Assembly (NCBI GenBank): GCA_016342285.1
Contig: JAEINQ010000023.1
Span: 1-64,000, forward strand
Source: Desulfobacterales bacterium
Lineage (GTDB): Bacteria > Desulfobacterota > Desulfobacteria > Desulfobacterales > JAEINQ01
Direction: 5' to 3'
Length of the DNA: 64,000 nt
This document shows, piece after piece, positions 46,916 through 47,510 of the stretch. Position 1 is the stretch's first letter. Each line of letters begins with the position of its first letter. Under the pieces are notes generated by a model. The model did not search any database, was not told the origin of the DNA, and was given only the letters and a program-made list of their open reading frames with translations. The position numbers were made by a program, and so were the translations under genes.

Positions 46916-46931
46916 AGCAAAGAAAATGCCA
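46916..46931 (-). promoter_or_regulatory. Putative sigma-54 promoter for the amidohydrolase gene
   Basis: Reverse complement TGGCAT-TTTCT-TTGCT. Confidence 0.65.
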
Positions 46932-47094
46932 GACATCTTAAATTGATGTCGCCGGCCGGCCCTTTGATGGGTATTTTCCCCTTCTACCACGGCTATCCGG
47001 ATAAAATTTCAATTTCAACCCAGGCCATTTTTGACCCCCGGTCAGATGGACAGCCTTGGTGATTCCCTTCCCCTCGGCCTTGTCCAGACCCAAC

Positions 47095-47181
47095 ATGATG
47101 CAAATATGCACCAAATTCTTTCAGAAATGGTGAATCTCCAATGATCTCCGTACACCTTTTTTTCCCAAAGTGCAATTTTGC
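47095..47181. promoter_or_regulatory. Putative shared UAS between divergent sigma-54 promoters
   Basis: ATGATGCAAATATGCA(47095-47110), GCAATTTTGC(47172-47181); a further ATGATGCAA at 47298-47306. Confidence 0.45.
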
Positions 47182-47494
47182 CACATCGTCTTTATTGGAA
47201 AGAAACGTCAAAATTCTTCCGAACTTGCTTAATCCCTTTATATTCAAATTCTTACCACTTTTCTGGCCGTTTTCATGAAAAATGGCGTCTTTTTTACATG
47301 ATGCAATTCTGAGACTTTTGAGAGGCAACACAGCGTCGGCCATGGGTTGGTCGGCACACCCGGCGACTTTGTTTTGTCCGTTCACGGCAGGCCCCGCGTA
47401 CCAGCGCACTCCCTTGGCCCATGCACCGGCGAGATAAAACCAGCGCCTCGATTCGCCACGGACGCGTTACAACGATTTAGACATCCGTGGCCTT

Positions 47495-47510
47495 TGGCAT
47501 GATGGTTGCT
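47495..47510 (+). promoter_or_regulatory. Putative sigma-54 promoter of the BMC shell operon
   Basis: TGGCAT-GATGG-TTGCT, 100 bp upstream of the eutQ-like ORF. Confidence 0.7.

Follow-up and report, generated by a model that had tools for sequence, protein, structure and literature searches.

A probable shared sigma-54 control region for isethionate compartment genes in a Desulfobacterales bacterium

Introduction

Isethionate is a substrate of sulfide-producing bacteria of the gut and of sediments, and the closest described regulatory system comes from Desulfovibrio vulgaris Hildenborough. There, the one-component GAFSGA activator DVU2827 is predicted to control, via sigma-54 promoters and predicted activator sites, an amidohydrolase gene and an operon for a transporter, a glycyl radical enzyme annotated as ‘pyruvate formate-lyase’ and its activating enzyme (Kazakov et al. 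2015, PMC4641369). This regulon was filed under pyruvate metabolism and is without compartment genes; its glycyl radical enzyme has since proved to be an isethionate sulfo-lyase (PMC6453916). In Bilophila wadsworthia, a taurine- and isethionate-inducible islAB compartment cluster has been reported, which encodes IslA, IslB, shell proteins, EutQ, Pta, an aldehyde dehydrogenase, a PduS-like protein, a PAS regulator and an amidohydrolase (Burrichter et al. 2021, PMC8667426). In Clostridium ljungdahlii, a member of another phylum, the inducible promoters of glycyl-radical compartment clusters have been predicted to be sigma-54 dependent, but these compartments serve choline and 1,2-propanediol, and the accessible part of that report describes no shared divergent array (PMC12016505). 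Our literature search found no paper tying sigma-54 control to an isethionate compartment.

Here, we describe a locus in the window, by which we mean the whole stretch of 64,000 nucleotides of Desulfobacterales DNA that was analysed (Table 1). A gap at 46.9-47.5 kb separates the gene for an amidohydrolase-family protein from an operon that begins with eutQ and encodes shell proteins and, judged from sequence comparisons, this gap probably switches on the genes of an isethionate compartment. The locus has the gene content listed above for B. wadsworthia; the B. wadsworthia cluster differs in gene order, in having a cobalamin adenosyltransferase-like gene and in being without a described promoter or activator site. 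Compared with D. vulgaris, an islA-linked one-component GAFSGA activator, likened to DVU2827 by its description, is again found with glycyl radical enzyme, transporter and amidohydrolase genes as its putative targets. The system is thus not of a new kind but an extension of the regulon predicted earlier for Desulfovibrio; what is new relative to the D. vulgaris prediction is the control of a shell operon, the array of activator sites and the assignment to isethionate, which is also the suggested real response of the D. vulgaris regulator.

Table 1. Features of the locus, in window coordinates.
Feature	Position	Strand	Details
PAS-AAA+-HTH sigma-54 activator with GAFSGA loop, likely regulator	33693..35156	+	domains, islA linkage in relatives
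TRAP transporter dctP-dctQ-dctM, probable isethionate uptake	37639..40848	-	substrate inferred from context
Weak sigma-54 candidate of dctP	41066..41081	-	GGGCTT-GTTTT-TTGCA; 9/11
Weaker candidate activator site, islA/dctP gap	41317-41334	.	14.0 bits
Weaker candidate activator site, islA/dctP gap	41339-41356	.	15.0 bits
Candidate activator site, islA/dctP gap	41400..41417	.	TGTTGTATTTTTGCATCA; 20.4 bits
Weaker sigma-54 candidate of islA	41578..41593	+	GGGCAT-GGCCT-TTGCA; 10/11 with Y allowed
islA, isethionate sulfite-lyase (glycyl radical enzyme)	41776..44253	+	closest structures 5ymr, 7kq3
islB, radical SAM activating enzyme	44408..45355	+	
Amidohydrolase-family protein (Amidohydro_2), C-terminal encapsulation-type helix	45745..46689	-	start codon set by alignment with relatives
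Sigma-54 -24/-12 element, amidohydrolase transcript	46916..46931	-	TGGCAT-TTTCT-TTGCT; 1 mismatch from TGGCAC-N5-TTGCW
Candidate activator site A	47096..47113	.	TGATGCAAATATGCACCA; 18.6 bits, matrix learnt without the window
Weak candidate activator site B	47168..47185	.	AAGTGCAATTTTGCCACA; 7.3 bits; 72 bp from A, conserved spacing 72-76 bp
Weak candidate activator site C	47299..47316	.	TGATGCAATTCTGAGACT; 10.0 bits; 131 bp from B, like relatives
Sigma-54 -24/-12 element, eutQ/shell operon	47495..47510	+	TGGCAT-GATGG-TTGCT; 1 mismatch from TGGCAC-N5-TTGCW
Shell operon: EutQ, Pta, BMC-H, PduS-like, BMC-T (PduT-like), two BMC-H, EutN, EutE-like aldehyde dehydrogenase, EutJ	47610..55178	+	

Divergent sigma-54 promoters and their conservation

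A sequence-only reading of the window had placed two near-consensus -24/-12 elements in this gap, and both were found there, each matching TGGCAC-N5-TTGCW at 10/11 positions (11/11 when the sixth base may be C or T) and pointing away from each other. Both putative promoters have GG at -24, GC at -12 and the fixed spacing, the genome contains one rpoN gene, and candidate upstream activator sites accompany them. From the usual 12-nt distance, the amidohydrolase transcript would start near 46905 and that of the eutQ/shell operon near 47521. The description of the spacer as about 560 bp of AT-rich noncoding DNA also holds: the promoters are 563 bp apart, and the gap has 48% GC, compared with 57% for the window, and a core of 35%. 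A 138-aa open reading frame listed inside it (46993-47409, minus strand) is probably spurious. The gap contains only one-mismatch matches to the IHF consensus, which are uninformative, and has no listed sigma-70-like promoter, and known RNA elements were not found at 30-60 kb of the window.

Within the 64-kb window, one-mismatch sigma-54 matches number four, against 3.0 expected, which is not significant. Across the whole genome, TGGCAY-N5-TTGCW occurs 62 times, compared with 4 times for a reversed control, an enrichment of about 15-fold; by this difference, T is an ordinary sixth base in this genome, and the exact matches are likely to be real for the most part. The significance of the two promoters derives from the genome-wide enrichment together with their noncoding position, correct orientation and conservation in relatives. 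Elsewhere in the same genome (G000), two more divergent exact sigma-54 pairs, each about 300 bp apart, lie at C77:43330-43666 and C87:29884-30190.

Conservation was assessed in 23 loci with amidohydrolase relatives, which were annotated using the window's own proteins. Where the amidohydrolase gene diverges from the eutQ/shell operon, an 11/11 sigma-54 site lies upstream of it in 8/8 loci (the window, L034, L037, L038, L039, L041, L046 and L047), and where it lies inside an operon, a site of at least 10/11 is found upstream in 0/11; close kinship among some of the loci lowers the number of independent cases, perhaps to five or six. On the eutQ side, eleven loci have a site of at least 10/11 and L042 has one of 9/11 only, and none was detected by the promoter scan in L036, L038, L040, L045, L047 and L048. 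Desulfovibrio-type genomes have divergent sigma-54-like pairs in most of their islA/amidohydrolase gaps, often with ATGCA or GTGCA at -12. This comparative evidence supports the earlier proposal that the amidohydrolase and shell operons are sigma-54 dependent and divergently controlled.

A palindromic array between the promoters

Between the two promoters lies a palindrome, TGTTGCA-N4-TGCAACA, that the sequence-only reading had overlooked. It was first noticed when the window was compared with L034, and a palindromic matrix was then trained without either of them on 20 intergenic regions from other relatives. The motif occurs in 19 of these 20 regions, for a total of 389 bits compared with 238-253 bits in six shuffled sets. 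When the matrix was applied to the window, its top four matches (41400, 47096, 41339 and 41317) all fell within two divergent gaps; an array scan likewise placed 47096 first by a wide margin, and this site is the only exact match to TGNTGCAN4TGCANCA in the 6.5-Mb genome. The same palindromes are present between the sigma-54-like pairs of the Desulfovibrio-type islA/amidohydrolase gaps, in genomes outside the training set. Together, the sigma-54 site and TGTTGCA-N4-TGCAACA provide a sequence rule for finding isethionate compartments and predicting their induction.

Divergent loci have arrays of up to three sites with spacings of 72-76 and 121-132 bp, and the spacings of the window (A to B and B to C) recur in other families. 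In Halodesulfovibrio, the second spacing is shorter by about one helical turn, and some elements of the array persist from family to family even where islA or dctP replaces the amidohydrolase gene opposite the shell operon. We tentatively raise the possibility, itself rather doubtful, that the three-site array, with its fixed spacings of about 73 and 131 bp, works as a geometric divider, which would set the expression of cargo and shell from one looped activator complex.

The islA/dctP control region

A second divergent gap, between islA and dctP at 41.0-41.8 kb and thus 6 kb from the amidohydrolase/eutQ gap, had likewise escaped the earlier reading, as had the regulon prediction for D. vulgaris. 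It contains three palindromes and, on both strands, weaker sigma-54 matches, which lack the initial T of TGG; the relative L034 has counterparts upstream of islA (AGGCAT-GCCCT-TTGCT) and of dctP (GGGCCC-GCTTC-TTGCT). On this evidence, the four transcription units have the look of a single regulon. A sodium/calcium exchanger gene (36414-37478) follows dctPQM in the window, as it does in L034 and L044.

The glycyl radical enzyme lends support to the isethionate context of the locus: among solved structures, it is closest to the isethionate sulfite-lyases 5ymr and 7kq3 (1408 and 1331 bits, respectively, compared with 1180 bits for 6lon, which we take to be HpsG). A Desulfovibrio-type paralogue gives the reverse ranking, and genes for an acetaldehyde dehydrogenase and Pta lie near islA. 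The D. vulgaris isethionate sulfo-lyase is presumably DVU2824. The NCBIfam model NF048011 labels the IslA of the window, at 1557 bits (cut-off 1000), as a sulfopropanediol dehydratase. The model behind this name probably covers both enzymes, because 5ymr and 7kq3 outscore 6lon and the Desulfovibrio-type paralogue shows the reverse, and NF048011 may thus mislabel IslA proteins.

Proposed mechanism and alternatives

We propose, with a probability of roughly 0.85, that the two divergent promoters of the 46.9-47.5 kb gap share one sigma-54 control region, which the PAS activator works via the three-site array. In the proposed model, sigma-54 RNA polymerase would occupy both -24/-12 elements and the PAS activator would bind the palindromes at 47096, 47168 and 47299, from where it would loop to each promoter and melt both with ATP. 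Leftward transcription would yield the amidohydrolase-family protein, probably sent into the compartment, and rightward transcription the shell and the enzymes that convert acetaldehyde to acetate. The same activator would also act at the islA/dctP gap and, with its action at both gaps, uptake, C-S cleavage, shell and cargo would be induced together. The inducer is probably isethionate or a signal derived from it, sensed by the PAS domain. Of this model, sequence comparison shows the promoters, the array, the conservation of both and the linkage of the activator to islA, from which binding, looping, RpoN dependence, the signal and joint induction are inferred.

That a sigma-54 activator is encoded some 11 kb upstream was confirmed (11.8 kb separate the end of the gene from the nearer promoter), and the window encodes no GAFTGA-like protein other than this PAS-AAA+-HTH protein. 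With 56 activator-like loci in the genome, and with the PAS gene 12 kb away beyond the transporter and islAB genes, the promoters could be sigma-54 dependent but answer mainly to another activator or to several. We regard this as unlikely, since the best match of the PAS activator adjoins islA (within about 1-2.5 kb) in 9/10 Desulfovibrio-type genomes and lies within or close to the locus in L035, L044, L049, L050, L052 and L053, the GAFSGA loop and HTH are conserved in the islA-linked orthologues, and the genome has hardly any other copy of the palindrome. The HTH is also closer to that of the islA-linked orthologues than to those of paralogues in its own genome, and the PAS activator is the likely driver of the gap promoters on these comparisons, which in view of the 56 loci are strong though indirect evidence. 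Weaker activator paralogues adjoin a second amidohydrolase copy in several Desulfovibrio-type genomes, some of them near an HpsG-like enzyme.

Alternatively, the palindromes could be the target of another protein such as a repressor, and the activator could use a different element, for instance the perfect inverted repeat GACATC-N7-GATGTC (46932-46950), which abuts the amidohydrolase -24 element on its upstream side. This repeat was rejected as the activator site because it is not intact in L034, and the palindromes are in the usual enhancer range, 140-250 bp upstream for the amidohydrolase promoter and similarly far from that of eutQ; a separate palindrome-binding protein is accordingly less probable still than another activator. 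The least probable account, to which we give very little weight, is that both sigma-54 sites are chance matches and that the operons use other promoters: it fits the counts from the window alone, but not the genome-wide enrichment, the position and conservation of the sites or the lack of a listed sigma-70-like site in the gap.

The shell operon and the amidohydrolase-family protein

The shell operon encodes four BMC-domain proteins, and the amidohydrolase-family protein opposite it ends in an encapsulation-type helix, ADLVGDIVREVMARMKN (45745-45800, minus strand), that resembles known encapsulation peptides. A C-terminal helix of the type DLVGxIVREVxxRL is present in 20/20 amidohydrolases whose loci include shell genes and is absent from the amidohydrolase relatives of L053, L055 and ten Desulfovibrio-type genomes; in the latter ten, EutN is missing or encoded far from islA. 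The protein is thus probably a compartment cargo, as judged from this distribution, which would explain why it and the shell operon have their control region in common.

Throughout the family, the HxH metal motif is replaced by an almost invariant IDFRFRP (46650-46689 in the window, minus strand), a replacement presumably shared by the PDB relative 3irs. The protein may therefore not be an ordinary hydrolase and, as a speculation, could act on the acetaldehyde-bisulfite adduct. Among 396 genomes of the phylum, it was found in 14 (G000, G014, G040, G076, G109, G117, G138, G162, G187, G190, G256, G335, G354 and G373), all 14 of which have an IslA-like enzyme, itself present in 17 genomes; a hitherto unexplained amidohydrolase-family protein is now tied to the isethionate pathway. 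Some of the genomes with the amidohydrolase have a second copy of it, which lies close to an HpsG-like enzyme and to an activator paralogue. The window has a further Amidohydro_2 gene at 58901-59872, on the far side of the shell operon.
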